Shown here piece after piece: positions 4,872-63,752 of a DNA stretch of 64,000 bases. The first letter of the stretch is position 1. The number at the start of each line of letters is the position of its first letter. Origin of the DNA: Agarophyton chilense (taxonomy: Eukaryota; Rhodophyta; Florideophyceae; Gracilariales; Gracilariaceae); assembly GCA_030374765.1 (NCBI GenBank), contig JARGXX010000116.1:124001-188000 (forward strand). The letters are read 5' to 3'. Made by a program: the position numbers and the translations under genes. The notes under the pieces were generated by a model. That model was not told the DNA's origin, made no database searches, and saw only the letters and a program-made list of their open reading frames with translations.

Positions 4872-4949
4872 GCTGCAGACACGACACCGACGATTCGGGG
4901 TAACGATGAAATTCGATCACGAGATTCCCGGAGAACGGATGACGTAACA

Positions 4950-6016: not shown

Positions 6017-6020
6017 TTTT

Positions 6021-6251: not shown

Positions 6252-6262
6252 ATATGAGGCCA
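6245..6262. repeat. 18-bp palindrome TGGCCTCATATGAGGCCA, copy 1
   Basis: A perfect 18-bp palindrome. The same sequence occurs at 26550 and near-identical versions occur at 9398 and 29350. Confidence 0.7.
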
Positions 6263-26764: not shown

Positions 26765-27558
26765 CTTTGAGTTCAGTAGAACTCGAAAACTTCTAGGGGA
26801 GCTCGATTAGTTTTAAAAAATATTATGGTCTAAGAACGCATTTTTGTCCTCTTGAACAGCAGACAGAATAAGAAGGTGGCATCCGCCAAAGGGATAGTTT
26901 CGTCAGATACCACATTATATCTAGAAAGTTAAATAACGCAATTTGAATTAGTAGGCGTTTTAAGATAATTTGGACTTCTGCTTTATACTTTTAAAAATGC
27001 CTCTGAAACAGCCTAAAAACGCATTTTGACACATGAACAACAATGTTGTTGAGTAGATGTTGTTCGAAATGGGATGAATATCACGCAGATGATCTGAAAA
27101 ACAATCACGACAGGTTCCATTGTGACATATATAAACATTCATATCATTGTAAGTTTTGCATTCTGAACAAACAAATTTTGATTTGTAAGTTGTTTTTCAG
27201 ACTTTAAATCGTCCTTGATAAGTTTGAGACGTCAAAAAGCCATCTAATTTCCTTTGTTTTCGATTGGTCTTCATTAAATGAATGCCGGTACTAGCCATAT
27301 ATGAATTTTCTATTTCATCTTCCTCCTTACATTTGCTTTTAATAGTTCGAATAGCATCCCAGTTGTTATCTTTAAAACTTCTGCGATGCTACAATAGAAA
27401 CTATGTGGTGTAAAATTTAATGTGCTCCCCTATGTCCCCTCGTACAGATTCCAAGCATCAAACACGCACATTGCAAGCAAAGAATTATTTACTCTAAAAG
27501 AACAATCTTTCACTTCGAACTTCTTTTCCATATTCAGATCATCTTGACGTGACGTATT

Positions 27559-28260
27559 ATGCCTTTCAATTCTTTAACAACAGGAATATTACTCCTCGCA
27601 AAACTCTGTAAAAGCAATAGAAAGCGAACTTTACTTTGTTATTCTATCAGTTGTCCTCCATCGTTCAGGAAAAATGGGAGTTTTTGGTTGGGTACTGCTG
27701 CCATTGCTAATGAAATATATCCTTTCACTGTCCAACCAGAGCACACACATCAACTTTAGATCCATTTCAGGCAGTTTCGCGACGATTGACACGTGCTGGC
27801 CTCGTGCCGTCAACGTAAGATCGGAAAGATGTTTCATAGGAAACCTTCTAGTGGCTGTTTTTGTAACCGCAATAATCGCATTCCTCTTCTTAAAAGATCT
27901 TCGACTGTTTCAACAGAAGCAAAATATGAATCTGCGCAAACAATTCGATCAGTTGCGAATCACTTCTCAACAGGTCTCATTGAAACAGGTGTTTGATGCC
28001 CATGTTCCGATTCAAAAGGCTGCACATCTGGTTGCATAGCTCCAATCGTGATTTCTCTTTTGGAAATCTTCCCACTCCTTCCACAACACACTATCTTTAA
28101 TTTGCAACCATTTTCAGGTTCCTATCAAGAGCAGTGTAGAGTGAAAATCCAATTTCAATCCAGTTCCAGTTTCTTCCGAGGCTATACAAACGTGATATAC
28201 TTTCTTCCACGCACAACGTGTGCCAAGAAGTTACGAAAGCTTTGCGATGGTCATTTATAG
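27559..28260 (+). pseudogene. Decayed protein-coding stretch, family unknown
   Basis: A first frame of 66 codons starts MPFNSLTTGILLLAKL, with a hydrophobic start. Then a frame from 27793 to 28260 runs 156 codons with one stop and is rich in Cys and Ser (GCFCNRNN, CPCSDSKGCTSGC). The pieces are not in one frame. It could be a decayed secreted or membrane protein gene. No homologue is recognised. Confidence 0.3.
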
Positions 28261-28579
28261 CTTTCAAAAGTCAGAAACGCATGACCACCTGGATTTGTCT
28301 GAATTTTGATCGTCTTCACTGCAACTGAAAACGATAAGATGTCGTATTTATTAAAAACAATAGCGTGACATGATCTTACTGAGCTGGGATGATTCAATAT
28401 ATTTTGAAGACATGTCTTTAAACCAAAATTAACTTCTATAAGAAAATTCAAAGCGGATCATTAACACCAACAAACCAAAAAACTTCAAAATTTCACCCCC
28501 TGTAGTCTGCTTGTAGCCTTTTTTCCAGCCGAGAGTTGGTAGGTCAAACTATTTTTTTCAAATAAGCTACAGGAAACAT

Positions 28580-29178
28580 CTACATGAAGAAATCATATAG
28601 AGAGAGTCCCAAAGGCGCATGAATGACGCAGATAAAATCTCCAACAGGTCCCGTGTCTTTCCATTGATGCTTTTGCACTGGACCATTCAGAGTCAAAGAT
28701 ACATTTTCTGTTGTCCATTGGGTTGAATGAACTTCTACCAAGCTGTCTTGCGTGTCACTGTTTGTCACAGTACGAGGGCTCGACAGATTCATTGTGTGAC
28801 TGTCATTGCCGTACGTGGCAGTATGCTGCTCTTCATTGTTCGAAACTTCATTAGTAAGAGCAGCACCATTATCTCCATGTTCGACTTAACTGCTTCCTGG
28901 GCAGATTTCTGAAACGTAGGATGATTCCCTGGTGTCACAATACAAATTGTTAGAGTGCACACCTTCTTGCGACTAGGTGGCTCGAAGTTTTCGGTGACAA
29001 AAGTGTGTCTTCGATTATTTTGGACAACAACGTCGACTTTTGTCACACTTTCGCTTACGAGTTTCGTCTTCCATTGCGTGCCGAAGAATTGTTTACAGTC
29101 GCTCTCTGATGTTACGAAACATGCGCGGGTGTTCACTCTATTTCGCACTATACCTCGAGGATCTATAGATGAGACCAT
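28580..29178 (-). pseudogene. Orphan gene in two overlapping frames, probably frameshifted
   Basis: The upstream frame (29178-28789) encodes 129 residues from an ATG (MVSSIDPRGIVRNRV). The downstream frame (28792-28580) continues with MNLSSPRTVTNSD and overlaps it by ATGA. Protein-like sequence in the second frame extends upstream into the first (GDNGAALTNEVSNNEEQ), which suggests one original gene with a single shift near 28860, or an unrecognised splice. No domain is recognised. Confidence 0.4.
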
Positions 29179-29349
29179 ATTTGATAAATTATGAAGGAAT
29201 GAAGTAAAGATGATGTTTTGTGCCGGTTATGGACGATCATTTGTGATCTTTGAGGTTGACACCAGAGAAGAAGAGAGTGTTGGCAACGTCTAGGCACAAA
29301 AATTTAAGAAAACTGACAAAGCTTACAAAATTTATCGATGTTGTAATTC

Positions 29350-29367
29350 TGGCCTTATATGAGGCCA
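29350..29367. repeat. 18-bp palindrome, copy 4 (TGGCCTTATATGAGGCCA)
   Basis: One arm position differs from the copy at 6245. Like the copy at 9398 it is followed by GTGGT. Confidence 0.65.
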
Positions 29368-30100
29368 GTGGTTGTATAGACATTAGAGAACACCAAGAAG
29401 GTGATAAGATGGTTTTTTGTTGGTCTCTGCCTTTTTCACTCGGGGCCAAGCGCTCTTTATTACGCCAGGAGGCATAGGAGTTACTGTACTGTTGTGGGAA
29501 TCTCCCGAAGTGACATAATTGGTGGCAAAAAGATAGATGACAGGGCTCTACTCTACAGAAACCAGATAGAGTACAGTGGCGTTTGAAGAGTTTGCTTCGT
29601 CTCCACTATCGTGTTTGTCCCCCAGGACGCCCCGCCCCCTCTTCTACCTCGCTCTCCCTACTTCCGGTTACCCGTTTTATATCCACTTTTCTATACCCTT
29701 TCGCCATCTTCCTGCTAACTGTCTTCTTATGTACATTATCAGCTCACGGCCGACGGTGCGCGCTGCTCGACTCTTCACGTTGTACATAATTTGGGCCGAA
29801 TGACCTCTGCGCGTTAGTATATGCACCGTTTATGTCTTCTTGTCGCACCATGTCATCACTGTATTGTCACAAATGTAAAGTCTACACTGTGGTGTGCCAC
29901 AAAGTAATTTTTCTGAAATAAAAAAATTGATTATTTGGTGCTCACACCATGCAAAGGTACAGTAGTACAGTGCTCTTAAATAAGTCTTTATTTCCAAATT
30001 TTCCCAAAAGTATTCTTCTCATAAGATCTCGTTACCGAGTACAGTACCAAGAACAGATTATGAATGCCGTATATCGACTTCGATGATTTTCGATCCCTAT
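29368..30100. other. Intergenic stretch before the C-rich island
   Basis: Only short frames without motifs. Base composition changes to strongly C-rich on the plus strand from about 29600 onward. Confidence 0.35.
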
Positions 30101-30618
30101 AATCACTATGCATCTGGAATTATACACCTTCCAATTACTCCGATGCTCATTGCCTAGATTCACTCCATCTCAAGATCAACATATCCGGCATATTCCCGAA
30201 AGTCGAACATCCATCACCACGAGCACACCGGACAGCAGCAGACAACCCCACCTTGTCCCTCCTGGCCCCCCGTACCGTCGTATATCCATGCCAAACCACT
30301 ATGAATTCCCATTAGATCAACCAAACAATGCTCCAAACAACGGCAAAAAAGAGTCCGATAATGACATCGTCAAAGGTATGTTCCTTCTGGACTCTCCTCC
30401 ATCAAAGGTTCAATTCACGTCTTTCGCCATAATTATCCCGCCAAGTCCTTCTTCCTTTCCCTTCACTGGAGATTCAACCGCTCCTACGATAACAGAGTCT
30501 ACAGAGACCTACGTGCTAGTTCATACGTCTCCAATCAAAGCGAACACGCTTGAACTTCATATCCATAACACTAAGCATCCTCTCACAAGAAGTAAACACA
30601 TTTTCCTCCCAGTCTCAT

Positions 30619-31477
30619 TCACGCATTGTCGAAACCTTCTCCTACCCCCTCTTCTCCCTCTTGTAGCAATGCATGATCCTCTCCTCCATGAGCAGAACTT
30701 TCCACAACCTTCGGATCGCAGTGTAATGGCTCAAACTCCATGTGATACGGCCTACAACTCCCTTTATAACAGTCCGCCACGCATCCCAGGTGGTCCTTGA
30801 ACGCGTTCATGAACACTTCTTCACGAACTGCCAAATAAACCATTTGCTTCGAAGGCATCAATAGTGCAACAGTCCCGACACTCTCCGAATTGCCAAAAAC
30901 ATGCCTCGATTCTTCCCTACTCACTTCCTGTGCTTTAGTTCCTCCCTGTATATCTCCTTCACCATCCCCCTCGCCGTCTCTAAAATTCCTTCTACAGCCA
31001 GCAGAAGGTACTTTGAAAACAAATTCGTGAACATTCTCTGCCGTATTACACCTCTTCCACCATCACAATCCCTCACGTGCACCACACACGCAATCCACGC
31101 ATCCAGGCGCCCCAGCTGCACAACACTCCCATTCACATACATATACCCTTCCTTCGCTTCCCGCGACCGTTCCTGCAAGTCGTACCAAGAAAATCCTTCA
31201 GCACTTGGAAACTCACTCCGTTCCGGAAGTACATGTCATCAGGCTCATTTTCATACTTCTCCGACGACACACTAAACCCAGAGAAACATATCTCTTCTAC
31301 TTTCCTCACCCTCCATGTCGACAACACTTCATTTTCACCAATATCCTTCGGTAGCAGCTTCTGAAGCGCCTCCTGCACGTACAACACATACCTCCTCTGT
31401 ACTTCGTTGTTCTCTCCATGTCTAGGACGCCTAGCTATCAAATTATATCCCAGTCCTAAGAACAGCTTCTCGCTCAC
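30619..31477 (-). pseudogene. Orphan family copy A
   Basis: Minus-strand coding-like sequence matched piece by piece to copy B: GLGYNLIARR, DDMYFRNGVSFQVL, GRLDAWIACV, and SVGTVALLMPS. The order of these pieces is the same in both copies, so they share an ancestor. The copy is broken. The function is unknown; viral or plasmid origin is not excluded. Confidence 0.45.
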
Positions 31478-31699
31478 ATTCGTCTGTGTTCTCGTAATGC
31501 TAGTTTAGGCGTAAAAAACGGACGAACTAAAATTGATAGAAAACCCATCAGTTTTTCCATTTATGCAGTTCCATATTTTCTCAACATAACTTCACCCATT
31601 TAAAGTTGCTAGTTTTTAGCGAAAATGAACAAGCAAAAAACTGCATAATCCGTATTTTTAGCCAGCCCCAATCAGGTGTACATAGTAAAACACTATGCA

Positions 31700-34600
31700 T
31701 GTATTTGAAATTTTCGCGTTATTGTAAATGAAGCCTGGCCATAGCAATAAATATCAAAACAGGAATAGAAATCTGCCATATTGGCGGCACATAGCCAATT
31801 TCCCAAATTACCACAACGCAGATGTCAGTTCCCGCAGTCCGTTCTCGACTTCTCCCCATAGCCCTGCATCACGTGAATTGCATGCCCCACAACTCTCCCC
31901 ATATAATTATCACCGCACCCTATGCGCCATAACCTCTACGCCCCCTGCTTCTTTTCCCTTCTTCCGCATCAACGCGCACCCCCTATTCCACACCATACCT
32001 CGCTGTTGCTTTTACAGTTGCTACTTCTTCGTCCGCACCACCGCTGCCCTACAGTGCCACCAACGAAGGTGCCCTCACCGGCTCGCCTCCACAAAACGCA
32101 GGCTCCCACCAACCATAACCCACTCTCTCCCAGACACAGAGCGCCACAAGTCCACTCCTCTACTGCACGCCCCTCTCACCCTCTCAAACCGCAACTTCGA
32201 TAACGTCCTCCTCGCAGATGAGGACTCCTACCACCACCAGCAACATGCCCTCTCCCTCCACACCGCAGACGCACTCCAAATCTCTAACAGTACTCTCTGC
32301 TCCGTTTCATCCTCAGCCCCACTCCCCCATCCCCCTTCACCCCCATCTTCGAACACCAAAAAGTAGAACAGCTCTACCTCTACATCTCCTTCATTGCCAC
32401 CAATCTCGGCCACCGAAAAGCGGACTAGCTCATCACCATACTCAACGATCCAAGCTCCTCCAAGTCAACCTTCCAGCCAACCATCTCCTCCGCCCGCCAA
32501 TGCATCGAGCTCAAGGAAAATCTCTTCAAGCACCGCATCGGTTCCTTCGGCCTCGTCCCACTCTCCATCACCGACAATCTCAACCGCTTCACTTCAAAAA
32601 CGCAATAGATGTCCTCAAACATCAACTCTCCCTCGCACACCCCCCCAACACCTTCTTCCACCCCATCGACCAAAAGTCACATTACGGTTCCCCCGCATTC
32701 GCTCACCCAATGGCCGCCTCTCTCGAGCACGACGTCTTCCCTGCACTCAAATCAGCCATCATGCAGTCCAAGAACGACAGAATCATATGGCACTGTCCCC
32801 ACACAACCGGAATGGACTCCTTCATCAGTTTCATCCAGCTATACTCGGACAAATCCTCCACCTCCCTGAAAGCCTCCTCCATCATCTCCTAACCCCTCCA
32901 CATCACCCTCCTTAACTTCTCAGACTCATTCAGACGAAAATGCTTCTATCAAAACCTCACCATCATCGGTTGCCTCCCTACCTCCTTCCAACCCACCGCA
33001 TATGCCCCGAAGCAGACGCTATCCGACGCTCGACCGTAGATATCCATCGCGAAACAAGAATCAAACTCACACAAGCCGCCATCAAAACTATCCTCCAGCC
33101 CCTTCCCTGTTCTGGTCTCCTCGGCTTCCCCTTCTACGATGCTCACAAAGTCCTCTGTCAATGTCACCCGGCCCTCCCAAGTTACTGCGCAGACATCCCC
33201 GAGGTAAAAGACATCCTCGCCATCTTCCACGGAACACGCCCCAGGAGACCCTGGCACCGATGTCTCTTTACTCGCTCCCTCCTCCACGAACCCTCTCACA
33301 ACGCTCCCTCCCGCACCCCCCATCACAACTCCGACACTCGAAAGCTGCACGCCTCTCTCCTTCTTGACTCTGAACAGGCGCACCTCTCCCGAAAATCAAG
33401 AGTCGCCCGCACCCAGAAAGAGGAAGCACTCACAGCCCTCCATGAAGTATCCATCGCTAAAAACAGCTCCATTCTCGAACCCTACCCCCTCCCCACCATC
33501 TCCCAAGAGCTCACCTTCTACATCATCTTCGCATTTGATCCCCCTGCACAACTTCCACCTCGTAGTCTCCAAGCCCACCAAACTCACAGCCATCGAAAGG
33601 CTCAAGTCCCAATCTCTCTTCACCACCATCGGGCCCTCCAACACCTCTCGCTCCTTCATGTCCGTCCGCACCTTCATATTCAACCACTCAAACTCCATTT
33701 TCGCTGCGATCGAAGCACACTTCCCCGCCCAAGGCCTCCGCATCAACTTCTCAACCTCCGATAGCGCTCGTAACCTGAACGGATTCATTACTCTAGAAGG
33801 CATACGCGGCATGCTCGAAACTAAAGACTACCACGCTCTCGACAATGTCTTCCCCTTCTTCGGCGTTTTCTTCGACAGATGCTGCAACGAAGTACAAACC
33901 GCCCCGATCACCACCGTCTTCACCAAATACACCGGCCTCCTCTTCATGTACATGCGCTACAAAACCGTCCTAGAATGAACAGAAGATACACTTTCAACAC
34001 TAGAGAACCACATTTGTTCCTTCTAACTCGCGGCAGTCAACACTCTCGGCCCTCACCACACCTCCAACCTCAGCCCCCTCAAGTTTCACCTCTTTGATCA
34101 CATTGTCGAAGACATTAGAAGATAAGGCGGCCTCCACTTCAACGATGCTGGCATCTACGAACACGCCCACACCCTCTTCAAAGCTCATTACCGCCACACC
34201 TCCAAGCGCCGATCCAACTCCCACACCGAAACCATCCGCGCCATCGACCGGTCGCACGCACTCCAGCACTAGAACCCCATCCCCTCTCACCCTTCCCTCT
34301 CCTCCTCCTCCTCCCGAACTCCTCTCACACCCCGTCCACCCGTTTTAGTACGTGACGGCAGAACCATACCACTCTCAGACCTCATCACCGCATACAGGCT
34401 CCTCCGCCTCAACCGCCTCTCCAACTCATGCTCCCTCAAAGATCTCTTCTCTCCAGACACCACTTTCACCCTCTCACAAATAGAAATCACTGCCCTCGCC
34501 TCCTTCATGACCTTCTACCTCAAAACACTTTCCCTCCACGAGCATTACTGCGGCATCTGTCTCTTTCATCTCAGCGTAGTGAAGTCCGCGTACATCGTCG

Positions 34601-35180
34601 GTGGATACATCCACAAATTGCAATATTACCGGCCGACACAAAACGAAATTGCACTCAAGGATCCCTCCATCCCAGTCATTCAACGTATCTTCGCCGCCCC
34701 CTCCTTCGGTCCCTTCAAGTCCTCAAAAATCTCACACGTTATCGTCGCCAGAAAAACCTCCTCAACCTCTTCCCTCACCATTTCGGTGTGCAAACTCAAC
34801 TCCTTCATTCGAATCTCATCAAAAACACCCCCAACATCTCCACCGAACTCGAATTCGTTGAGTTCTTGGAGATAGTCCCCCCAAGGGACAACATTAGCCC
34901 AGCCCTCAACTCCATCTCCCTTCGGTGGGCAACAGACGAATACTACAACCACACAGTGCACTCTGTACCCATTTCTCCAGCCTCAACCTCTGAAAACGTC
35001 TCCCCTTGGTTCGGTCTCATTCCTTCTCCCTCCATCATCGGCTCCGTCCATGTCATCCGTGAAAACTACCCCGCTTCCCCTTTCGCACCACGCCTTTACT
35101 GGCGCTTCCACTACTTCTACATCAACCGTTTGTATTGGGAACCAGGTGTACAGCCATTCATTAAACCCACGCCTTAGTTC
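31700..35180 (+). pseudogene. Plus-strand coding-like block of the island
   Basis: Several frames overlap and look protein-like in parts, for example MSVRTFIFNHSNSIFAAIEA (about 33660), DNVFPFFGVFFDRC (about 33840) and FYINRLYWEPGVQPF (about 35115). Composition is strongly Pro/Ser/His-rich in alternative frames because of the C-rich strand. The block is broken and no family is recognised. Confidence 0.35.
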
Positions 35181-35299
35181 ACGTCTCCTAATACTCCAAT
35201 ACTCCTTGTGTTGCACCCACCGTTCGCAATTTTTCTTCCATTGGCTTCTCCACTTCGCTCCCATTCACTCTCTGCGAACGATTAAAATACGACTATTCC

Positions 35300-36350
35300 G
35301 GGTTTCAGGCTCCAACGTAGCAATCCGGTACAGCACCAAGACGTTTCTTCAAGTTTTCTACAAAGAACTGCTCTTTCACTGCAAGGTTCATCTTGCCAGA
35401 TGAGGGCATCCAAATTCCCACCGTCGCAACCCTCTCCGAATTTCTTGCCACCCTCCTCCCTTCCCCCGCAAGAAACACACAGTGCTCAAACTCCACACCA
35501 TTCCTCTCTTTCACTACTTCCGAAGCAACCCCCGAAATCCCCTCCAGTGCAAGCGGTAAATACTTACCTTATAAAGTAGAAAACAATAATTGCCTCAGAC
35601 AACCGCGTCCAACCTCCCAGTCCATCGCCGCCAGAACGCAAGCAATCCACGCATCCAGTCTTGCGAGATGCATCCCATCCACGTACTTAATCTTCCCATC
35701 CTTTTCCATCCTAACATAGTACCCCATAAACTTCTCCAGCACTTCCACCGCAAGTCCATTCCTAAAGTACAAATCTCCATCATCAAATCTTCTGAACCTC
35801 GGAAGAGCCTTCGACCCTGAATATATCAGATTTTCAATCCGGCGCATGCGCCATACAAATAGCCTTCTCGTTCCATCCTCATCCCTCATCTAAAATATAT
35901 CTCGCGCCTCTTTTATCTTCTTCTTTAATTCCATTCCGAGCTCCTTGTCCTCCTGCAACTTCACACGCCTCGCAATAAAGTCATAACCGAGCAGCCCAAA
36001 ACAGTCGGTCACATGCATCCCGCTTTCATACCCCTACCACATCGCTCAGCGTCTGTCTCATCCGCTGTCTCAAACACATATCCTCACTCACCTTCTCAAC
36101 ACACTCCTCCTTCCTTCCCGCAGTTGTCATGGACTCCCACTGTTTCTCTTCCACCTCCGTGACCAAAAAAATACTTCAGCAACGGATCGTTTTCCACTTG
36201 AAATAAGGGCGTGTACGACCTCATCTCTGTCGCCACCTGAAACAGACAATTCGGTACTACCTCGTTTGGCACTACCACAACAATACTATCTTCGTTTTGC
36301 GCTCCCACCGTCTCACTTCGATTCATCCAATTCCTTGCAATCACATTGGT
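35300..36350 (-). pseudogene. Orphan family copy B
   Basis: Matches copy A with LLGYDFIARR, GDLYFRNGLAVEVL, ARLDAWIACV and RVATVGIWMPS in the same order. Identity is clearly below that of a recent duplication, so the pair is old. The copy is broken and of unknown function. Confidence 0.45.
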
Positions 36351-37106
36351 CTTGATGGAACACTCCGACTATTCCAGCTTCGTATAATGTAGAATCCTGT
36401 CATAGACTTACCGGAAAACCCCATAGAAGCTCTTCTGTACTCCAATGTCATACTTACGTCACTTCGACATCTCCCCCGATCCACGCCCTTTCCCTCCCCT
36501 TTTCAGAGTGTTCGACGCTTCCCTAAAGCTTTCCACCAACACATTCTGTCCAATTACATCCCCCTCAAGCGATCCTCTTCCTTCTGCGTCAACTTCAGAC
36601 TCACCATCACACTCAAGTAATCATCCTTCACCTTACTAAGCGTCCCCTTCAAAACATTCTCCCTTGGTCACCCATCGCAGTCCTCGCTGCCATTACTGAT
36701 ATTATTCTCGTTCTTCTCACACGCATGCCATCTGAAGTCTCCGATCTACTTCTACCACCAACCCCCTGTTCTCAACCAGACGCACTTACTAAACGCTCCC
36801 CCACATTACGAGGCCCTTCTGCCCTTCCCTCTGCTACTACTTTCAGGTTTTCCACTCCTCTTATTCGCCATGCTTCTAATCCTCGCCCTGTTTTCGTTTT
36901 CCCGAAGATTCTCTTGTGAGCTTTACTTCTACAGCGGTTTCCTCACGTTGGGAATAATTCCTCGCGACCCTGGCTTTGTACTCAACCCTTTCTTCTAATC
37001 GGGCAGGTTTTCCATCCTGTTCATTTTTAGTAGTACGTCTGATTCCTGCGAGGTCAGCTGCGCGTCTGGTACTGGCTCCAATACCCCTCTCGATATCACC
37101 TGTTAT

Positions 37107-37727
37107 TCATGTTTCCTTTCGTATGGTGTGGTGAAGTGTTGCTATCCTTTGCCTCGAATCTCTTTTTCGTACTACCTGTGGCTCCTCTCGCCGTGCTGAA
37201 TCGTTCACGGCGCTTCTCGACTGCCCTTTTCGTTCTTTCTCACCTCCTACTATTCTTTTATTTTCAATCTCCTCAATCATTTCATCTGCACATGTCTTAA
37301 CGAGCGTACTCTCTTTCTCAACCTGTTCGGAAGCTTTTCTTTCCTCTTTTACACAATCAAGTCTAGTTCTAGAAGTTCTGCCACTCAAACCACCTCCATG
37401 TCCTCCCCGCCTTGCACCAACGGTCACAACTTTGGGATTTCCGTTCTGCATTGCGTGCATCTTCTCAACGCCCACGTTTCGTCTTCGTTTCACTTTCTTG
37501 CCATTGTTGATGTTCGGATTTGCGGCAATCTCCTCACTTGCCGTTCTCTTCGAAAAAACCCCATCGCCGCGCAACCTTTCATCTCTTACAATCCTTAGCT
37601 CGCTTCTCGGCGGGCCTTTTCTATCACCACCGGCTCCACCGCTATTTCTCCCAGAGGCACGGCGCTGGGTCTTGCAATCTCGGCGCACATCCGGTGTACC
37701 TGACCCTCGATTCCTCTTCGATACCAT
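37107..37727 (-). CDS. Hypothetical very basic protein
   Basis: An uninterrupted ATG frame of 206 codons at the right end of the C-rich island. The product is rich in Arg, Lys, Gly and Ser (KKVKRRRN, GARRGGHGGGLSGRTSR) with a more acidic helical part (EQVEKEST, DEMIEEIENKR). Such composition fits a nucleic-acid-binding or nucleolar protein, but strand skew alone can give Arg/Gly-rich frames. No domain is recognised and the frame may be a chance one. Confidence 0.35.
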   Translation of the reverse strand: MVSKRNRGSGTPDVRRDCKTQRRASGRNSGGAGGDRKGPPRSELRIVRDERLRGDGVFSKRTASEEIAANPNINNGKKVKRRRNVGVEKMHAMQNGNPKVVTVGARRGGHGGGLSGRTSRTRLDCVKEERKASEQVEKESTLVKTCADEMIEEIENKRIVGGEKERKGQSRSAVNDSARREEPQVVRKRDSRQRIATLHHTIRKET

Positions 37728-37800
37728 TCGATATTCCCAACGGTAACCGTGGAATCAGTTCCAGAGCCGACTACGACGGACCATTAAAACACCACGCCGC

Positions 37801-39836
37801 TTAGTTTTCGCGAAAAATGCAGAAAATTAAAGAAATGGAAAACTGCAAACAGGTTTCCGCCGCTGGAACTGCATCATCCAAACTGCCCGTCCGTCTCGGA
37901 CGATTGGCGGTGAAAGATCTCTCCCCCCCTATTAAGTTTGACTTGCTCTTCTTCGCATTCCTTTTTTTCTGCATTGACCTCAAATTTTAATTCGTAATCA
38001 TGCCCAATGTACATTCGCCACAGAACATGTGTGCGTAACGGTTAGACTTGATAGCGTATCCGACCCCCAAGATATATCGAACATGATTGGGAATTCTCGT
38101 TCTCGGTCTTTTCATGATCACTTGAAGCGCAGCATTCAACACTAGGACGCAGGTTATGGATGAGCAGACATCGTTCATAACACGAGATACCTTAAAAATG
38201 AACTACCTTGGGTATTGTAAAGAAGCTTTGGGCGTGCGTGTCGTCACAGCTTGTCACCTTCTTCGTCGTGCACTCGGCTCTCAGCGTGTTCTTAACGCTT
38301 GTGTGCGCGCTGCAGAGTCCAGTGGCGTGTCTGCTTATATTGAAATTGCTTCACGCCATTATCTCCGTGCCAAGACGCGTGTCTGTCGAATACAGGCGCG
38401 TCATGACAGCGCACTTTGGAAAGCTGTCCATGGTACCGAACACCGATATGATCGGCACGGTGGAGGCAGTGTCAGTGCAGCACATGCAGTTGGCGTCATT
38501 CGTAGGTGGCATTTGTGGAAGCCACCCGAAATAGGTGGAGAAGTACGCTCAACGTGGTACTGGCGCGGTTGAAGACGGTGCAGAGCGTGGTCAGTGCACT
38601 AATTAAGCCCGATTTATTGTACATGCCTAGAAATATGTTTTTCTCCTTCATTTTCCGAGCCGGACAACACATCTAGTTCCATTTGTTTCAAAATCGATGG
38701 TTACGAATACGATCGACCATAAGATAAAACAAGGCGACCTGCAACTTGTTTCCCACGCCTTCCTTTCCGCAGAGAATCCTCTTTTCTTCATAACACTACT
38801 CAATTCGCGAAGGCTGGTTCGAGCCTTCTGTAAAGATTCATAACGCGCATCATATGTACCTGCGCCGGACAGTCGGGCCAAAAACAAATGACCATTACGA
38901 CCTAAGTATTGCGATTTTGAAACAAAAGCTTTCCGTCTGCTTCATCGCATGTCAACTTCACGCGCGCTTCTTTTTCTTACTTGTCTCAATCTTTGACCGC
39001 AGATTTGCTTTTTCAACACCATAAGTCCTGAAAGAGTATCGAGGACTTAAATTGAGAAAATATCTGGTGCTAAGCCTGTGTGAACTCGTCTGTGACCGAA
39101 GCTGCGAAAAAGCCGGGTTTCCTAGTTATCTAGTGATGCGGTAGACACTTAAGAAATATCACGGTCTTTCAGGAACTGGTTACAGCCTTTTAATGTGTCT
39201 CCATTTGCCTGAAACGATAAATTTGAAGGTCGTCATAGGCCAAGGTCAGAAGTCTTTAGACTTTTCGATCGGAGGTGTCTTCATTGTGGTTTCTGACTGA
39301 AACTAATACTAGGAGTGACCACCGATAGTCGACGGCTAGCAGTACCTTTCTCATCCAATACCATGTCGCTTTCAGCTCTAGCACAGTCGTTGGTGGGCAA
39401 AGTCTTCGAATAATTCAATGTTCCAACTGATCTTGAACACAAGATTCGACGAGATGAGCGTGCTGGCCCCACATGTGAGTATTTCAGATCTCTGGAGAAC
39501 TTCTTCTTCGAATGATGACTGACTCTTGTTGAACACCTACTATCCTTTTTCTCATCACACATGTCTACATATATCTGTCCTAGTGCGTCGGTCATAAACA
39601 GAATCATTCTTTGTTTGAAGTCTGTTTTGTATATTCCTAAAGAAATCCCAATCATTTTTCTATGCGTCATTCGAACAATTCCATTCCGTGATTGGTTAGA
39701 AACTTACAAATTTCGCCACAAGGCCCGACCGCTCGCTTTGAACAGTAGGCTTTCTCATGGAAGAAGAGGAGTTTAAATCGCTTTCCAAAACATGTTCTAT
39801 CGTTGATGTGTTTGCCACTAAAACATGAATCCAAAG
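37801..39836. other. Region with weak orphan frames only
   Basis: Frames at 38156-38572 (+, 138 codons, ATG start), 38648-38887 (-) and 39281-39670 (-, 129 codons, ATG start) are open but lack recognisable domains and have competing frames. None is asserted as a gene. Confidence 0.3.
38156..38572 (+). CDS. Hypothetical protein, weakly supported
   Basis: A 138-codon ATG frame (MDEQTSFITRDT). The first third could form helices (RVVTACHLLRRALGSQR). An alternative frame over the same bases is hydrophobic and equally long, so the coding frame is uncertain. Confidence 0.22.
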   Translation: MDEQTSFITRDTLKMNYLGYCKEALGVRVVTACHLLRRALGSQRVLNACVRAAESSGVSAYIEIASRHYLRAKTRVCRIQARHDSALWKAVHGTEHRYDRHGGGSVSAAHAVGVIRRWHLWKPPEIGGEVRSTWYWRG

Positions 39837-40646
39837 TTAGTTCAGATTTTCTAATCTTCTCTGCGATGAAAGATCTAGAACTTTTGTGGAGTGAAGCAGG
39901 TTCAAGGACCCTCTCGGAGAATCATTCTGTACAAATAGAGACGTTTTCTGTACGCTAACGGAAATCGGACCACAGAAGTCGTGTTGCTGTGTTTCTCGAC
40001 TTAGTTTCCTTTCCGCAGTGGGAGGATATATATCATATTTCATTGCTTTCAACTGACTTCTTTTCTGTATGAAACGAGCAGGAATGTCCAAAATGAGAAC
40101 ATCATCCTCAACCAATTCACTTCCCGGTATGAAGACGTTCTCCATAATTTGTTCCTCTGCAAGTAGAGTCCCCCAAGTCAGCAATAATGACTGAAAGGCA
40201 TCGATTTCATCCCCTGGAATATCATTTCTTCGGGTTTGATTCATCGAAATAGATGCAGTACCCCTTCTGATTTTGGTTTCCCATACATTAAAAAGGCGTG
40301 GCATTTCCCGGCGTTGGGAGGCCGACATTAACGTCTTTTGGAAAGCGTTGTGCTGCGATTCGTTTTCTTCGATATGGTTGTTGAGTCTTTTGAGGTCGTT
40401 GCGAACTAGCCTCAACGACATTAAAGTCGACTTTTGGCGAAGTGCTTCTTCCGTAAGACTGGAAGGGCTAAGGCTGTATTCATACCATTTGCTGGCACTA
40501 CGAGTCATACCAATTGTCGTTTGTAGACTGAATATTTCGTGCACCGTTTCGTCGTCCTCGCCAGGTGTCTCTTGTGCTGGGCTATACCTGACAGTACTCG
40601 AGATATATATATAACTGTTGGATTCATTGAAACTGAGAGGAATCAT
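39837..40646 (-). CDS. Hypothetical protein, 269 residues
   Basis: An uninterrupted ATG frame. The middle is charged and helical (LRLVRNDLKRLNNHIEENES), followed by AFQSLLLTWGTLLAEEQIMENVFIPGS and a Leu/Ser-rich end. Composition is protein-like, not skewed, and the length is well above chance for this AT content. No domain is recognised. The upstream frame 40624-40950 overlaps its start by 23 bases in another frame and may belong to the same gene. Confidence 0.45.
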   Translation of the reverse strand: MIPLSFNESNSYIYISSTVRYSPAQETPGEDDETVHEIFSLQTTIGMTRSASKWYEYSLSPSSLTEEALRQKSTLMSLRLVRNDLKRLNNHIEENESQHNAFQKTLMSASQRREMPRLFNVWETKIRRGTASISMNQTRRNDIPGDEIDAFQSLLLTWGTLLAEEQIMENVFIPGSELVEDDVLILDIPARFIQKRSQLKAMKYDIYPPTAERKLSRETQQHDFCGPISVSVQKTSLFVQNDSPRGSLNLLHSTKVLDLSSQRRLENLN

Positions 40647-55954: not shown

Positions 55955-58900
55955 TTATAATTTAGCTGGATTCCTTGCCCTATTAATTTCGTAGATGGCA
56001 GCAGCTCCCATACCAGAACCAATACACATGGAAACAACACCGTACCTTCCATTCCTTCGGCGAAGCTCGTGTATGATCGACACAGACAGACGAGCTCCTG
56101 TCATTCCTAGTGGATGACCTATCGCAATTGCTCCTCCCATAACGTTGACGATGTCTCTATTCAAGGACAACTTTTCAATACAATAATCCGCCTGTGAACC
56201 AAATGCCTCGTTGATCTCGAAAAGATCAATATCATCTACACTCAAACCGGCTTTCTGCAAAACCGCAGGTATTGCAATCGCTGGCCCAATACCCATAACT
56301 GCGGGATCAACACCTAAGACGCTGAACGCTTTCAAAGACGCCAATGTTTCCAGATTTCTTGCCTCTGCTTCGGATCGTTTCATCAGCATGACCAGGGCAG
56401 CCCCATCACTTAGTTGGGACGAGTTTCCCGGCGTTGTGCTTCCACCCTTTTTGAAAACTGCAGGTAATTTCGCAAGTGTGGACATGGTTACTCCCAAACG
56501 TACACCTTCATCTGTGTTAACAATGATGTCTTTCACTCCAGTGACTTTCTTCGTTGCTGTGTCTATAACCTTCACTTGAGTTTTGACTGGGACAATTTCA
56601 TGACGCTGCCTTCCAGAAAGCTTGACCAGGGCTGCACGAGCATGGCTGCAGACAGCGAGTCTATCTTGCCGTTCACGAGAAATTCCGAATCGCTCAGCAA
56701 CATTCTCAGACGTCTGTCCCATTGTTAGGTAACAACTACTTGCCTCTACTCTTCTCCGAACCTTCGGATTTGGTCTGAGTTCAGTGTTTCTCATAGATGC
56801 CATGCTCATGCTTTCTATGCCACCAGCAATGGCGATATGGTAGTGACCAGCTTGAATTGCTGCTGCGGCATCAACAATAGCTTGCAGGCCTGACGAACAT
56901 AGTCGATTAACGGTTTTGACAGGTACAGACTCCGAAAGACCGGCAATCATCTCAGCTACCCGGAGTTGGACGACGCCAGTATCCCCTCGCTGCAAAACAT
57001 TACCAGCGATTATATCTCCTACTTCATCCAATCCTACACCAGTTTCTTTGAGAATTCTCTTCAGCAATGGAATGAGAAGGTCCTCTGGTAGTGTATCCTT
57101 GAAGCCACCTCTCCCAGCCCGTCCAACAGCTGTGCGATATGCCGAAACTACAACAACGTCATCGGCCATTCCGGAAAAGAGAGTGGGATTAGGAACATGT
57201 CCTAAAGGCATGACGGCCATTCCTGACCTTGTGAGGGGAAAAGACGGCTTGAAAAGCGGGAAACCATCCGAAAGGCGATGAAAAGTTTCAAGCCTCTTCT
57301 TCACACCCAGAGAACCACCAAACTTGTTTTGAGCCCAATACATTAGACCTCCCTTGAATGCAGGAAATGCCATACCCATGACAGAGCATATGTCCAGATC
57401 GGAGGTGGACGTCGCAACACCCTCAGCTAGGATACGGCAACCCTCATTCACACATGGCAGAAGAATCATGTCCACGATATCTTCATCTGAAATATTTCCA
57501 GCTCTTTTTCGCATAGCTTGAATGTAACCCATACCGAGGTTGCTTCGTGCTTCATTCAAGAATGGTGCAATTATATTTTGATCAGGAACACCCATCTTGG
57601 TTCCCGCCTTGTATGAGTAGAACCCATTTCCTGTCTTTTGTCCCTTTCGCCCTGCCGCTAAAAGACTCTTCACCAACGACCTTGTTCCTACAGCTCTGTC
57701 TGCATAAGATGTTTCAAACACTTCTCCCACTGCAACTCCAATGTCCAGTCCGACTAAATCTAACACTCGAAAAGGGCCCATTGGAATTCCGAATGCTTCT
57801 AATGCTCGGTCAATTCGATACGGATCGATATCTAAGTCAACAACCAAGAAACTTGCGACCATGCTTTGAGGAAAGTACATTCGATTTACAGCAAAGCCAG
57901 GACAATTGCCCACCAAAACAGGGGTCTTTTTTGTCTTCTTTCCCAGGGCAATAACATCCTTTATGACGTTAGGACTTGTGGATTCGGAGCGAACAACCTC
58001 GAGCAATGGCATTTTATGAGCTGGGGAGAAAAAGTGTGCTCCAATGATCCGCCCTTCTCTCTGCGCCTGGGGTGCACCCATTCCAATGAGGTCAAGATTA
58101 AGAGTGGAAGTGTTTGTGGCAAGTATACAGCCATCCTTGCAGACAGATTGAAGCTCGCTGAATATTTTTTGCTTCAGGATGGGATTCTCCAACGCAGCTT
58201 CAATAACAATATCCACTTGTGAAAGCTTGGAGTATTCTGTTGTCACGGTAAGAAGAGCTAGTTTAGAAACATGCTTTCCAAGATTCTTCTTCACCCTCTG
58301 TTTGGCCCCCTGTGCAAGTTTTTCGTTTAGTTCCTTGATGCAAACAGGAATATCGACCATTAGCATAACTGTCGCAATGCCCGCACCCATAAATCCACCC
58401 CCAATCACACCCACAGACTTTGCAGGGTCCCCATCCTGACCTGGATTCGGGTCATTCGGGAAGTTAATTTTCGTGGTTCCCCTGCTGGCAAAGAATGTAT
58501 GAATGAGACTAAGGGAATGCGGAGAAGTCACAAGAGCCATAAACACCCGAGCTTCTTCTACTAAGCCCTTTCGACCTCCGTGAACAACACCGAACAAAGC
58601 CACGTCGATCAGCGCTTGGTATTGCATGAGGTGCCCTCCCCGTGAAAGCTTGGGCACCATCCTGGCGCTAAATGCCCCGGCAATCCTGGTACATTTCGCT
58701 TCAGGTTCCAGCCTATCTCTCCGATCGATTGTACACGTACGTGGAACTGAGCCGATGACTACTTTGTTAGCAAGTTCCACAGCCGCAGAAACAGCGTCTT
58801 CTGCAACGATATCAATCAAACCTATGGATTCTGCTTCTCGCGCGCTAACGACAGTGCTGAGTAGCATCATTGAAACTGCCTTTTCGAAACCTACGAGTCT

Positions 58901-59347
58901 TGGCAACCTCTGAGTTCCGCCGAGACCAGGAATAATGCCGAGCTTCAACTCTGGCAGTGAGAAAGAGCTTTTTGGAGAAGCAGTTCTCGCTGAGCAAGAA
59001 AGCACGAGTTCCAAGCCGCCACCAAAGCAAATACCATCAATCGCTGCGATGACAGGCTTCTGGCCATCCTCCGCGAGAGAATAGCAACGAGATGTTTCTG
59101 GTGTGAAAATACTCTCGACAGCTGAAGCAGATGAAAACTCTGAAATGTCTGCTCCCGGAGAAAAGAAAGTAGAGGATCCCATCGCCGTAACGACAATTGC
59201 TTTCGTCTGTGGGCGACTCACAACCATATCTAAGGTTTCAGAGAGTTTTGCCTGCATGACTGACGAAAGTGCATTTACCGGGGGGTTCGTAAAGGTGATG
59301 ATGGATATGCCATCGTGGCGATGATTTGTGGTAATTTCAGGCGCCAT
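55955..59347 (-). CDS. Trifunctional beta-oxidation enzyme: enoyl-CoA hydratase / 3-hydroxyacyl-CoA dehydrogenase / thiolase fusion, peroxisomal
   Basis: A single 1130-residue frame with three enzymes. Residues 1-200: crotonase fold with catalytic Glu113 (GGGLEL) and Glu133 (PELKLG), spaced as in bacterial FadB. About 308-690: 3-hydroxyacyl-CoA dehydrogenase with the NAD loop GVIGGGFMGAGIA, the catalytic His in GAHFFSPAHKMP (about 437) and a second C-terminal helical domain. About 726-1125: thiolase with nucleophile Cys in NRLCSSGLQ (about 817), EINEAFGS, GHPLGMTGAR and the second Cys in MCIGSGMGAA (about 1106). It would carry out the last three steps of fatty-acid beta-oxidation. The C-terminus AKL is a PTS1 signal, so peroxisomal. 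In plants (MFP2 plus KAT) and bacteria (FadB plus FadA) the thiolase is a separate chain. No frame disruption. Confidence 0.93.
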   Translation of the reverse strand: MAPEITTNHRHDGISIITFTNPPVNALSSVMQAKLSETLDMVVSRPQTKAIVVTAMGSSTFFSPGADISEFSSASAVESIFTPETSRCYSLAEDGQKPVIAAIDGICFGGGLELVLSCSARTASPKSSFSLPELKLGIIPGLGGTQRLPRLVGFEKAVSMMLLSTVVSAREAESIGLIDIVAEDAVSAAVELANKVVIGSVPRTCTIDRRDRLEPEAKCTRIAGAFSARMVPKLSRGGHLMQYQALIDVALFGVVHGGRKGLVEEARVFMALVTSPHSLSLIHTFFASRGTTKINFPNDPNPGQDGDPAKSVGVIGGGFMGAGIATVMLMVDIPVCIKELNEKLAQGAKQRVKKNLGKHVSKLALLTVTTEYSKLSQVDIVIEAALENPILKQKIFSELQSVCKDGCILATNTSTLNLDLIGMGAPQAQREGRIIGAHFFSPAHKMPLLEVVRSESTSPNVIKDVIALGKKTKKTPVLVGNCPGFAVNRMYFPQSMVASFLVVDLDIDPYRIDRALEAFGIPMGPFRVLDLVGLDIGVAVGEVFETSYADRAVGTRSLVKSLLAAGRKGQKTGNGFYSYKAGTKMGVPDQNIIAPFLNEARSNLGMGYIQAMRKRAGNISDEDIVDMILLPCVNEGCRILAEGVATSTSDLDICSVMGMAFPAFKGGLMYWAQNKFGGSLGVKKRLETFHRLSDGFPLFKPSFPLTRSGMAVMPLGHVPNPTLFSGMADDVVVVSAYRTAVGRAGRGGFKDTLPEDLLIPLLKRILKETGVGLDEVGDIIAGNVLQRGDTGVVQLRVAEMIAGLSESVPVKTVNRLCSSGLQAIVDAAAAIQAGHYHIAIAGGIESMSMASMRNTELRPNPKVRRRVEASSCYLTMGQTSENVAERFGISRERQDRLAVCSHARAALVKLSGRQRHEIVPVKTQVKVIDTATKKVTGVKDIIVNTDEGVRLGVTMSTLAKLPAVFKKGGSTTPGNSSQLSDGAALVMLMKRSEAEARNLETLASLKAFSVLGVDPAVMGIGPAIAIPAVLQKAGLSVDDIDLFEINEAFGSQADYCIEKLSLNRDIVNVMGGAIAIGHPLGMTGARLSVSIIHELRRRNGRYGVVSMCIGSGMGAAAIYEINRARNPAKL

Positions 59348-60101: not shown

Positions 60102-63100
60102 ATGTATTTGGAAAGGATAATCCTTGAGGGTTTCAAGAGCTATGCGACTCGGACTGAAGTTAAAGATTTCGATCCTTACTTCAATGCCATCACTGGCCTC
60201 AATGGGTCGGGAAAGTCAAATATTTTGGACTCAATATGCTTCGTTCTGGGTATAACCAACCTGTCTCAGGTTCGGGCATCATCGCTGCAGGATCTCGTGT
60301 ACAAAAGCGGACAAGCTGGTATCACAAAAGCAAGCGTCACGTTAGTGCTCAACAATACCGATAAGAGTACATCCCCTGTTGGATACGAGCAGCCCGACCA
60401 AATCACTGTTTGTCGGCAAATCGTGATTGGAGGCCGGAACAAGTATCTTATCAATGGAATCAATGCACAGCCGAGTCGCATTCAGAATCTGTTTCATTCA
60501 GTTGGCCTCAATGTAAATAACCCACACTTTCTCATCATGCAGGGTCGAATTACAAAAGTTATCAACATGAAGCCGGCGGAAGTCTTGTCGATGATCGAAG
60601 AAGCAGCTGGTACAAAAATGTATGAGAACAAAAAAGAAGCAGCTTTACGTACCATTGAGAAGAAAGAGCGCAAAGTGGAAGAGATCAATTCTCTTCTTGT
60701 GGAAAAAATCAACCCTTCTATTGAGAAGCTGGAGCTCGAACGAGAGCACTACCTTGAATGGAACACAAATAACAACGATATTGAGGCATTGAATCGATAC
60801 GTCATAGCAAAAAAGTATTGGCGTGCAGAGCAGAGACTTATGAGAAGCTCAGGAGAAGGAGCAAAGCTCGAAGAGAAGTTGAACGACGCTCAAGATTCGA
60901 TCGCTGACCTCGAGAAGAGTCATTCAGAGGCTTCAAATGGATTGAAACAAATGCTTCAAGAATATGACAAAGAACGACAAGATGGAAGTCTAGAATCTAA
61001 GCAAGATATGGTAGATGAGCTCAGCAAGAAGCTTGTTCAGATGCGAAGCTCTTGGTCAAATCAGAAAGTAGCTCTTGAATCGGAGGAGAAAACAGTGATG
61101 TCTGTCGACGATAAACTTTGTAGTCTGAAACAAAAACTTGAATCTCTTCGCGTACAAGCTGACAAAGCCAAGAGTAATATCCCACGAGATGAAGAGAGTT
61201 TAAAAACCGCCAAAGAAGAATTGGAGTCTGTTGAGACTGCGATGTTAACTGGAGCGAGTACTCAAAGGTCACAGGGATCAAGTGCCGGCTCCATCATCGA
61301 TCAGCTGGAAGCGGCAAGACGCGCCACTAGTAACGCTCAGACTGAAATTGAGTCATTCCAGGTCGAAAAGAGACATGTAACAGAAGAGATGACCACCAAA
61401 GCAGACCAACTTTCAAGAGACAGAGCAAACGTTCGAAATTTGGAGAGTAAGAAGAAAGCTGCCGAAAAAGCTATTTCGGACGCCAAACTGGCTGTTCATG
61501 AATTAGACTTCGATGGTCGGGAAGCGGAAACCCTAAAAATACAGCTAGGCGAAGAGAAGAAGCGGGCTGTCCTACTTACGGAGAAAGTGGATCAGCTACG
61601 AGCTCGGTTGGGGGCCTGTGACTTCAGATACTCAGATCCACATCCGAGTTTTGACCGTAGAAAGGTTCACGGATTAGTTGCAAAGCTCATTTGCGTCAAA
61701 GATCCCAAATTGACAACGGCGATTGAAGTTACAGCTGGTGGAAGACTGTATCAAGTTGTCGTTGACACAGATAGCACTGCGAATGAGTTGTTGAAGAGAG
61801 GAAGATTGATTCGTCGAGTCACAATTTTGCCGCTTAACAAGATTAGACATGAGGTCCTTCATGAGTCCAAAATTCGAAGGGCGAAACATATTGAAAGGTC
61901 TGCCGAATTGGCTCTCAGTATGATTGGGTACGATCATGAAGTTGTAAATGCCATTGAGCACGTTTTTGGCCGAACTCTAATATGCTCTGACATGGATTCT
62001 GCGAGACGAGTAACCTTTGATAGGGGAATTAGGACGAGGACCGTTACTTATGACGGAGACAGTTATGACCCATCAGGCACAGCTTCCGGTGGTTCTTCAA
62101 CACAAGCGCGTTCTTCGGTTTTATCCCTGTTAAGCAGTCTATCCGACGCAGAATCTGAGTTAGAAATACATCATGGCCACGTGACTCGCCTTCAATGTCG
62201 GGTTGACATGGTTGATGAGAGAGCAAGAAAATATCGGCAGCTTCAGACAACAGTTCAAGTTCGGGAGGATGAGGCTAAGCTGCTTGAGCAACAATTAGAA
62301 GAGACATCTACTGGACGACTCATGAAGGAAGTTGAAATTCTGCGAAAACGAGTTTCAGAGATACCGTCTGTCCTTGCAAAGGCCAAGGATTCTCTCCGAG
62401 AAAACGTCTTAAAAGTCCAAGAGCTAGAACTTGCCATGGAAAACCGGGAAAGTGCAAAGGACAGAGAAAAGAAGGAAGCTGAAGCTGCCCTCATAAAAAT
62501 TCGTAGTTCTTACGAGAAAGCTGTATCTGCTCTCCAGAATACGAAAGACGAGCATTCGCGTCTCATTGTTGAAGCAGAAGCGACTGAGGAGGAGATCGAA
62601 AGACTTCAAACACAGCTTATAGGTACCCTTCGTCCTGCTTTGGAAAAGCTTACAAAAGAAGTCAAAGATCTGGGGTCCAAAACTGTGGATACTGCTAATA
62701 TTTTTGAGGTTGCGAAAGAAGAGCTGCAAGGAGAGAAGGACCGACTGATCAATTCAAGCAAATCTATAAGCATTGCTCGGAAGAGAACTGAAGACCTTGC
62801 AGAAAAGATTGAGGGACTCAATCTTGAGGTAGCACGGTTAAAGAGCAAGTTAAAAGAATCAGAGAGAGCAAAATTCACCGCGAAACAAGTAGTCGCAGAA
62901 CTGGACGACAAGTTCGCTTGGATTGCGCAAGAAAAGGGGCGCTTTGGAGCTACAGATTCGGAGTATGAGTTCTCTGAAGAGAAGCTCTCATCAAGTTCCC
63001 ATAAGCTGAATGCTCTTGAGCATCGGCAGGACTATCTTTCGAAAAAAATAAACAAAAAGGCAATTCATATGTTCGAAACAGCGAAGGAAGAGTACAGGGG

Positions 63101-63752
63101 ATTGCTAAAGAAGAAGAAAATCATTGAAGAGGATAAAGAAAAGATTGAAAAAGTTATAAATGGCCTAGACGAAAAGAAAATGGTTGCCGTGGAGAAAACA
63201 TGGAGAAAAGTCAATGAAGACTTTGGTAATATCTTTTCGGATTTGCTCCCGGGTACAAACGCAAAGCTGGAACCACCAGAAGGACACTCTGTTGAGTCTG
63301 GTCTCGAGATTCGTGTCGCTTTTGGTGATGTGTGGAAAGATTCCCTCTCCGAATTATCCGGTGGTCAACGTAGTCTAATTGCACTTTCTCTCATTCTAGC
63401 GATGTTGAGGTTCAAACCAGCCCCTATGTATATTCTTGATGAGGTTGACGCTGCCCTTGACTTGAGCCATACCCAGAATATTGGTAGAATGCTTCGTCGT
63501 CATTTTACGGGTTCACAGTTTCTTGTGGTTTCCCTCAAGGAAGGTATGTTCAGCAACGCAAACGTGATTTTCCGAACAAAGTTTGTGAACGGCCTTTCAA
63601 CTGTGAAGCGTACAGAAAACACCGCTGTGCAGGATGACGCTGCATCTCCCAAGATTACACTTGGAAGTTCGAGTTCCATGCACGACAAGGAGAATATTGA
63701 CAACGAGTCGCGAGGAAACACAAGACGCCGAAAACGCACTGTACGGGAATGA
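60102..63752 (+). CDS. SMC2: SMC2, condensin ATPase subunit
   Basis: Predicted 1216-residue protein, the normal size of SMC2. The N-terminus MYLERIILEGFKSYATRT and Walker A GLNGSGKS (residues 32-39) are typical, as is FLIMQGRITKVINMKP. Long coiled coils at about 170-510 and 670-1030 flank the hinge (about 515-660, from HPSFDRRKVHGLV to GTASGGSS). The C-terminal head has the signature LSGGQRSL (about 1085) and Walker B YILDEVDAALD (about 1108). With SMC4 and the kleisin and HEAT subunits it forms condensin, which compacts mitotic chromosomes in the nucleus. It has no intron. The tail after residue 1150 is Ser/Arg-rich and ends RRRKRTVRE. Confidence 0.97.
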   Translation: MYLERIILEGFKSYATRTEVKDFDPYFNAITGLNGSGKSNILDSICFVLGITNLSQVRASSLQDLVYKSGQAGITKASVTLVLNNTDKSTSPVGYEQPDQITVCRQIVIGGRNKYLINGINAQPSRIQNLFHSVGLNVNNPHFLIMQGRITKVINMKPAEVLSMIEEAAGTKMYENKKEAALRTIEKKERKVEEINSLLVEKINPSIEKLELEREHYLEWNTNNNDIEALNRYVIAKKYWRAEQRLMRSSGEGAKLEEKLNDAQDSIADLEKSHSEASNGLKQMLQEYDKERQDGSLESKQDMVDELSKKLVQMRSSWSNQKVALESEEKTVMSVDDKLCSLKQKLESLRVQADKAKSNIPRDEESLKTAKEELESVETAMLTGASTQRSQGSSAGSIIDQLEAARRATSNAQTEIESFQVEKRHVTEEMTTKADQLSRDRANVRNLESKKKAAEKAISDAKLAVHELDFDGREAETLKIQLGEEKKRAVLLTEKVDQLRARLGACDFRYSDPHPSFDRRKVHGLVAKLICVKDPKLTTAIEVTAGGRLYQVVVDTDSTANELLKRGRLIRRVTILPLNKIRHEVLHESKIRRAKHIERSAELALSMIGYDHEVVNAIEHVFGRTLICSDMDSARRVTFDRGIRTRTVTYDGDSYDPSGTASGGSSTQARSSVLSLLSSLSDAESELEIHHGHVTRLQCRVDMVDERARKYRQLQTTVQVREDEAKLLEQQLEETSTGRLMKEVEILRKRVSEIPSVLAKAKDSLRENVLKVQELELAMENRESAKDREKKEAEAALIKIRSSYEKAVSALQNTKDEHSRLIVEAEATEEEIERLQTQLIGTLRPALEKLTKEVKDLGSKTVDTANIFEVAKEELQGEKDRLINSSKSISIARKRTEDLAEKIEGLNLEVARLKSKLKESERAKFTAKQVVAELDDKFAWIAQEKGRFGATDSEYEFSEEKLSSSSHKLNALEHRQDYLSKKINKKAIHMFETAKEEYRGLLKKKKIIEEDKEKIEKVINGLDEKKMVAVEKTWRKVNEDFGNIFSDLLPGTNAKLEPPEGHSVESGLEIRVAFGDVWKDSLSELSGGQRSLIALSLILAMLRFKPAPMYILDEVDAALDLSHTQNIGRMLRRHFTGSQFLVVSLKEGMFSNANVIFRTKFVNGLSTVKRTENTAVQDDAASPKITLGSSSSMHDKENIDNESRGNTRRRKRTVRE

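Follow-up and report, generated by a model that had tools for sequence, protein, structure and literature searches.

Domain organization of the locus

The 64,000-nucleotide stretch analyzed here (hereafter the window; positions 124,001 to 188,000 of contig JARGXX010000116.1, assembly GCA_030374765.1, from the red alga Agarophyton chilense) carries a single reading frame in which an enoyl-CoA hydratase (ECH), a 3-hydroxyacyl-CoA dehydrogenase (HACDH) and a 3-ketoacyl-CoA thiolase (KAT) follow one another. Very probably, this frame encodes a natural fusion of a plant-type peroxisomal multifunctional protein (MFP), MFP2, with a KAT-type thiolase, which is of the three-domain kind known from red algae and works in the peroxisome. 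The following features were assigned:

55955..59347, minus strand: whole frame, three-domain multifunctional protein (MFP-KAT fusion) of 1130 amino acids (open reading frame and Pfam)
58757..59317, minus strand: ECH domain, residues 11-197, with Glu113 and Glu133 (Pfam and alignment)
57905..58414, minus strand: HACDH NAD-binding domain, residues 312-481, with the GGGFMG loop, His438 and Glu450 (Pfam and alignment)
58259..58264, minus strand: site of an 11-residue deletion, residues 362/363, in the CoA-clamp region of the HACDH NAD domain (alignment and models)
57611..57898, minus strand: HACDH C-terminal domain, residues 484-579 (Pfam)
57269..57580, minus strand: counterpart of the C-terminal helical part of Arabidopsis MFP2 (AtMFP2), residues about 590-693 (alignment and model)
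57170..57223, minus strand: junction, residues 709-726, between the parts aligned with AtMFP2 (to 708) and AtKAT2 (from 727) (structure-sequence search)
55985..57169, minus strand: thiolase domain of peroxisomal KAT/ACAA1 type, residues 727-1121, with Cys817, His1078 and Cys1108 (Pfam and alignment)
55958..55966, minus strand: C-terminal AKL, the canonical form of a type 1 peroxisomal targeting signal (PTS1) (translation)

The frame runs from ATG to TAA without an internal stop, while the other five frames of the same stretch contain 25 to 64 stops each. Because a stop codon lies in frame two codons 5' of the ATG, no presequence is hidden there unless an upstream exon exists. Five Pfam matches, all above their curated cut-offs, follow in the order ECH_1 (11-197), 3HCDH_N (312-481), 3HCDH (484-579), Thiolase_N (731-992) and Thiolase_C (1000-1119). 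The sequence-only reading of the window, which had described the three enzymes in one uninterrupted chain with a peroxisomal signal at its end, was confirmed in both respects.

A sequence error near 57170 that joined two neighboring genes would also produce such a frame, and the frame does contain further ATGs, at residues 710 and 713 and, precisely where the thiolase begins, at 727. However, there is no stop or frame break, and the G+C content at third codon positions is alike on both sides (0.42 and 0.37). Searches of the 79.8 Mb genome (135 contigs), which were read exon by exon and scored the best candidates only, so that an absence is not absolute, revealed no other copy of either half. 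Since the same architecture has also been described in two red algae (PMC4928187), we regard an assembly or annotation artefact as very improbable.

Origin of the two halves

Among solved structures, the best relative of residues 11-708 is AtMFP2 (2wtb; 520 bits), with which they align over nearly its full length at 44% identity. Lower scores were obtained for Ralstonia MFP (390 bits), rat MFE1 (340), P. fragi FadB (298) and the mitochondrial trifunctional alpha subunit (251). For residues 727-1121, AtKAT2 scored highest (424 bits), followed by the sunflower enzyme (419) and human ACAA1 (404), with P. fragi FadA (232) and mitochondrial 3-ketoacyl-CoA thiolase (226) far below. The thiolase half is 51-53% identical to peroxisomal KAT2/ACAA1, with TMt values of 0.93-0.96 over six listed chains, and the fusion as a whole shares 48% identity with AtMFP2 and AtKAT2 set end to end. 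In NCBIfam, it fell far short of all five listed equivalog cut-offs for FadB, FadJ and the mitochondrial alpha subunit (FadJ 416.7 bits against 869, FadB 391.5 against 870, mitochondrial alpha 326.8 against 964.65). The broad subfamily TIGR01930 was the sole cut-off passed by the thiolase half among the 25 of 129 matches listed.

As the solved relatives favor AtMFP2 and AtKAT2 over FadB/FadA and the mitochondrial subunits, the fusion is best classified by similarity as a union of two peroxisome-type enzymes rather than of mitochondrial or bacterial trifunctional subunits. The same scores and cut-offs ruled out joined subunits of a trifunctional protein (FadB with FadA, or HADHA with HADHB). 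FadB/FadA, FadJ/FadI and HADHA/HADHB share the three activities, but distribute them over two chains with a separate thiolase, whereas the fusion is one chain. AtMFP2 and rat MFE1 lack a thiolase, which in the fusion follows in frame after the HACDH part; KAT2 and ACAA1 are separate proteins, while the thiolase of the fusion sits behind the MFP and bears the PTS1 at its end.

For comparison, we used 80 prokaryotic MFP loci, the best 80 of at least 258 confirmed relatives. In none of these 80 loci, many of which are cut by contig ends, was a thiolase present in the same frame. Of the 80, 33 have a thiolase match at another place in the locus, and 47 have none. In several loci a thiolase directly follows the MFP, which preserves the order of the fusion; in L035, for instance, the MFP spans 3914-6067 and the thiolase 6101-7297. 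A scan with the single fusion protein as query confirmed no relative, and the viral contigs contained no match to the fusion.

Catalytic residues

The MFP half was aligned with the 80 prokaryotic loci and AtMFP2 (81 rows), the thiolase half with 26 of the 29 usable thiolase frames. We take Glu113, Glu133, the NAD loop, His438, Glu450, Asn488, Cys817, His1078 and Cys1108 to have the catalytic roles known from their families. The glycines of the GxGxxG loop (Gly316/318/321), His438 and Glu450 are identical in 81/81 homologues. Glu113 corresponds to Glu in 78 rows and to a gap in three, Glu133 to Glu in 80 and a gap in one, and Asn488 to Asn in 77 and Thr in four. Ser414 of the HACDH part is intact as well, and Cys817, His1078 and Cys1108 are identical in 26/26 thiolase rows. 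The alignment columns therefore bear out the residues that had been named from the sequence (two Glu, NAD loop, His, two Cys).

Junction and structure models

Between the last AtMFP2-aligned and the first AtKAT2-aligned position lie 18 residues (709-726). Since the C-terminal ends of bacterial MFPs extend in the alignment into the first part of this segment, the true spacer may comprise only about ten residues. By sequence, an almost whole MFP and an almost whole thiolase appear to have been joined end to end. An initially considered flexible linker of 25 residues was dropped, given the 18 residues between the aligned parts, the bacterial tails reaching into them and the end of the AtMFP2 row at 707/725. 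Separately, a fossil type 2 signal (PTS2) at the junction (MAVMPLGHV) was ruled out by eye, as it does not fit [RK][LVI]x5[HQ][LAF] apart from the His at position 8.

The full chain was modeled with alignment A3, for which 41 MFP frames (76 usable) and 26 thiolase frames (29 usable) served as rows. This alignment misplaced the MFP C-terminal tails, leaving the model weak at 595-724, and we disregarded how it places the halves relative to each other (predicted template modeling score, pTM, 0.54). A second model of the MFP half alone, built on alignment A4 (45 of 76 MFP frames), reached a pTM of 0.85; both halves fold in the models. In the full-chain model, the predicted local distance difference test (pLDDT) is below 50 for most of 692-727. 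The MFP-half model instead shows a helix at 703-711 and block-mean pLDDT values of 60-71 up to residue 720, with values below 50 only at 721-726. The models thus point to a junction that is probably flexible, though only to a limited extent.

One possible consequence of such a junction is that the fusion serves only as a delivery form: a Tysnd1/Deg15-type protease could cut it after import, so that joining the halves would benefit import and stoichiometry rather than catalysis. The shortness of the junction (at most 18 residues) and its low pLDDT in the full-chain model would suit such processing. Mammalian Tysnd1 cuts PTS1 proteins including Hsd17b4 and ScpX, the latter with a thiolase domain (PMC3573110); these are likewise multidomain peroxisomal beta-oxidation enzymes with a PTS1, but are built from other domains. 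Furthermore, PEX7 is reported to be absent in Cyanidioschyzon merolae and G. sulphuraria (PMC7710942, PMC8172628), so that thiolase there needs the PTS1 route. The less disordered junction in the better-aligned MFP-half model argues against cleavage, which is the main alternative to an intact working chain but which we consider unlikely.

Shortened putative CoA-clamp region of the dehydrogenase

Residues 352-372 of the fusion amount to 21 amino acids, compared with 32 in AtMFP2 and 80/80 prokaryotic homologues, with 11 residues missing after Lys362, a gap that the sequence-only reading had not mentioned. These loci had been found by patterns flanking the deletion site, which do not fix the length there but bias the sample. 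The same 11-residue gap appeared against 45/45 rows of alignment A4. In five PDB alignments (AtMFP2, Ralstonia and three entries of rat-type peroxisomal bifunctional enzymes), 9 to 11 extra residues occupy the site; AtMFP2 and the rat-type enzymes thus retain what the fusion has lost. As whole codons are missing and the frame stays intact, a sequencing slip is a less likely cause.

In a related 3-hydroxybutyryl-CoA dehydrogenase, a helix-turn-helix between strands 2 and 3 forms the "clamp-roof", whose lysines touch the ribose and the 3'-phosphate of CoA (PMC11476959). Judged by its place in the fold, the deleted part would be the same element. Since both models contain one continuous helix at 342-365 with high pLDDT, the fold seems to tolerate the deletion. 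The enzyme might nevertheless be bifunctional in practice, with the shortened clamp disabling or slowing the HACDH step: 11 residues are gone from the region that forms the CoA-contacting helix-turn-helix in the related dehydrogenase, and an uninterrupted helix takes its place in both models. Weighing against this are the intact NAD loop, Ser414, His438, Glu450 and Asn488, the high pLDDT of the helix and the fusion being the sole HACDH found in the genome searches, and we rate it as highly unlikely.

Genome setting and targeting signals

In the genome, 3HCDH_N and 3HCDH each gave one match (13 candidates and 1 candidate scored, respectively), both of which are the fusion gene. Neither a second HACDH nor a second KAT-type thiolase was found among the best candidates. 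The thiolase families are represented by the fusion and one other gene, which is of biosynthetic type, scores best with acetyl-CoA acetyltransferases and ends in NSQ.

The fusion itself ends in ARNPAKL, and the chance of a [SAC][KRH][LM] end arising from its own composition is 0.003. C-termini were compared across 11 frames of acyl-CoA enzymes (the fusion and ten others), as read from the genomic frames alone. Six end in A[KR]L: the fusion (AKL), both acyl-CoA oxidases (ARL), an ACAD11-like protein (AKL), MenB (ARL) and 3-hydroxyisobutyryl-CoA hydrolase (ARL). One frame ends in ARI, and the remaining four, including the second thiolase, have neither end. Besides that, the genome contains three Pex2/10/12-type matches (one at a contig end), one Pex14 match and two ACOX matches. 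Owing to the AKL end, the A[KR]L ends on other acyl-CoA enzymes and the Pex14 and Pex2/10/12-type matches, peroxisomal delivery of the fusion is likely.

The acyl-CoA dehydrogenase family PF00441 had only two matches in the genome, the ACAD11-like protein ending in AKL and an acyl-CoA oxidase ending in ARL. This pair hints at a possible lack of mitochondrial fatty-acid oxidation. ABC_membrane_2, a family that includes peroxisomal fatty-acyl importers among others, gave eight matches, two with internal stops, and was not used.

Red-algal precedent and the site of beta-oxidation

The sequence-only reading had also held that known systems keep the thiolase on a separate subunit, which is refuted by published red-algal fusions. 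Mori et al. (2016) describe a C. merolae chain, CMR380C, that unites ECH, HACDH and KAT domains, and an MFP of similar domain structure in Porphyridium purpureum, calling this a likely red-algal feature (PMC4928187). The likeness to the A. chilense protein rests on the described architecture, with the same three enzymes in one chain. In a literature search largely without full texts, no further reports of such a fusion were found beyond this paper. While the architecture is already known, the canonical PTS1 on the fusion, an apparent dependence on a single HACDH and the 11-residue clamp deletion are what the A. chilense protein adds. C. merolae, in contrast, is listed with a separate HACDH and two KAT entries (PMC4928187).

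Several points weigh against a trifunctional enzyme that works in the peroxisome. The clamp deletion could weaken the HACDH step despite intact catalytic residues, and a cut at the junction would leave two separate proteins once import is complete. In addition, no PTS was detected on the C. merolae fusion, unlike the AKL end in A. chilense, and no beta-oxidation enzymes were found in the C. merolae peroxisome proteome; a peroxisomal signal was detected on acyl-CoA oxidase only (PMC4928187). Constructs of green fluorescent protein (GFP) with C-terminal peptides, all three tested and including the oxidase, were not peroxisomal, and a cytosolic site was suggested (PMC4928187). This test may be insensitive, because acyl-CoA oxidase failed it in spite of its PTS.

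By analogy, the A. chilense fusion could be cytosolic too, as proposed for the extra-mitochondrial enzymes of C. merolae. Against this stand its own AKL end, the AKL or ARL ends of the two acyl-CoA oxidases, the ACAD11-like enzyme and MenB, and the Pex14 and Pex2/10/12-type matches, which make a cytosolic site quite improbable. A published table lists thiolase as imported by PTS2 in most organisms and with PTS1 in those without PEX7; for C. merolae thiolase it gives a possible unusual form, AAL, in a section that names no gene (PMC3178647).

Proposed mechanism

From the sequence, we infer that the fusion is expressed, imported, active and dimeric. After synthesis in the cytosol, the chain would bind the PTS1 receptor through its AKL end and enter the peroxisome already folded. 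Inside, acyl-CoA oxidases, and perhaps also the ACAD11-like enzyme, would supply 2-enoyl-CoA, which the fusion would hydrate, oxidize with NAD+ and cleave as 3-ketoacyl-CoA into acetyl-CoA and a shortened acyl-CoA (steps 2-4 of beta-oxidation). Thiolase halves would dimerize to give a homodimer with two MFP arms. In this way, one PTS1 could serve three activities and hold thiolase and MFP at 1:1. Substrate channelling to the tethered thiolase is plausible but speculative. The earlier suggestion that it would occur without assembly is doubtful, since thiolases occur as dimers or tetramers (PMC3406046).

The likelihoods expressed here overlap and do not sum to one, as junction processing and a weak HACDH step are both compatible with a peroxisomal MFP2-KAT fusion. 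A more far-reaching possibility, which we consider improbable, is that red seaweeds run all peroxisomal post-oxidase beta-oxidation through a single PTS1 polypeptide, with loss of the PTS2 route as the reason why the thiolase is carried on the MFP, and with the shortened clamp easing hand-over of 3-ketoacyl-CoA to the thiolase. Where red algae perform beta-oxidation is a question raised for C. merolae, and a fusion with a clear peroxisomal signal bears on it. Moreover, a natural covalent trifunctional enzyme offers a system in which channelling could be tested.

Other features of the window and the genome

About 750 bases from the fusion gene, in head-to-head orientation to it, lies an uninterrupted SMC-family frame of 1216 amino acids (60102-63752, plus strand). 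GC skew on the plus strand is strongly negative, at -0.25 to -0.56 per 500 bases, over the eight kilobases from 30000 to 38000, and this stretch has its edges near 30 and 38 kb. For 27500-40500, the analysis reported no repeats that reach 20 bases in length. A frame within the skewed stretch (32940-33764) matches the Plavaka transposase just below the cut-off. Elsewhere in the genome, 14 of 15 phycobilisome matches are located on contig C39, which is probably the plastid; these matches would agree with a red-algal host, but phycobilisome-type genes also occur in cryptophytes and glaucophytes. Towards the start of the window, a retrotransposon-like frame at 394-2838 (minus strand) encodes reverse transcriptase and RNase H domains, and a WD40 protein, eIF3i, is encoded at 9797-10855 (plus strand; EIF3I, 425.8 bits).

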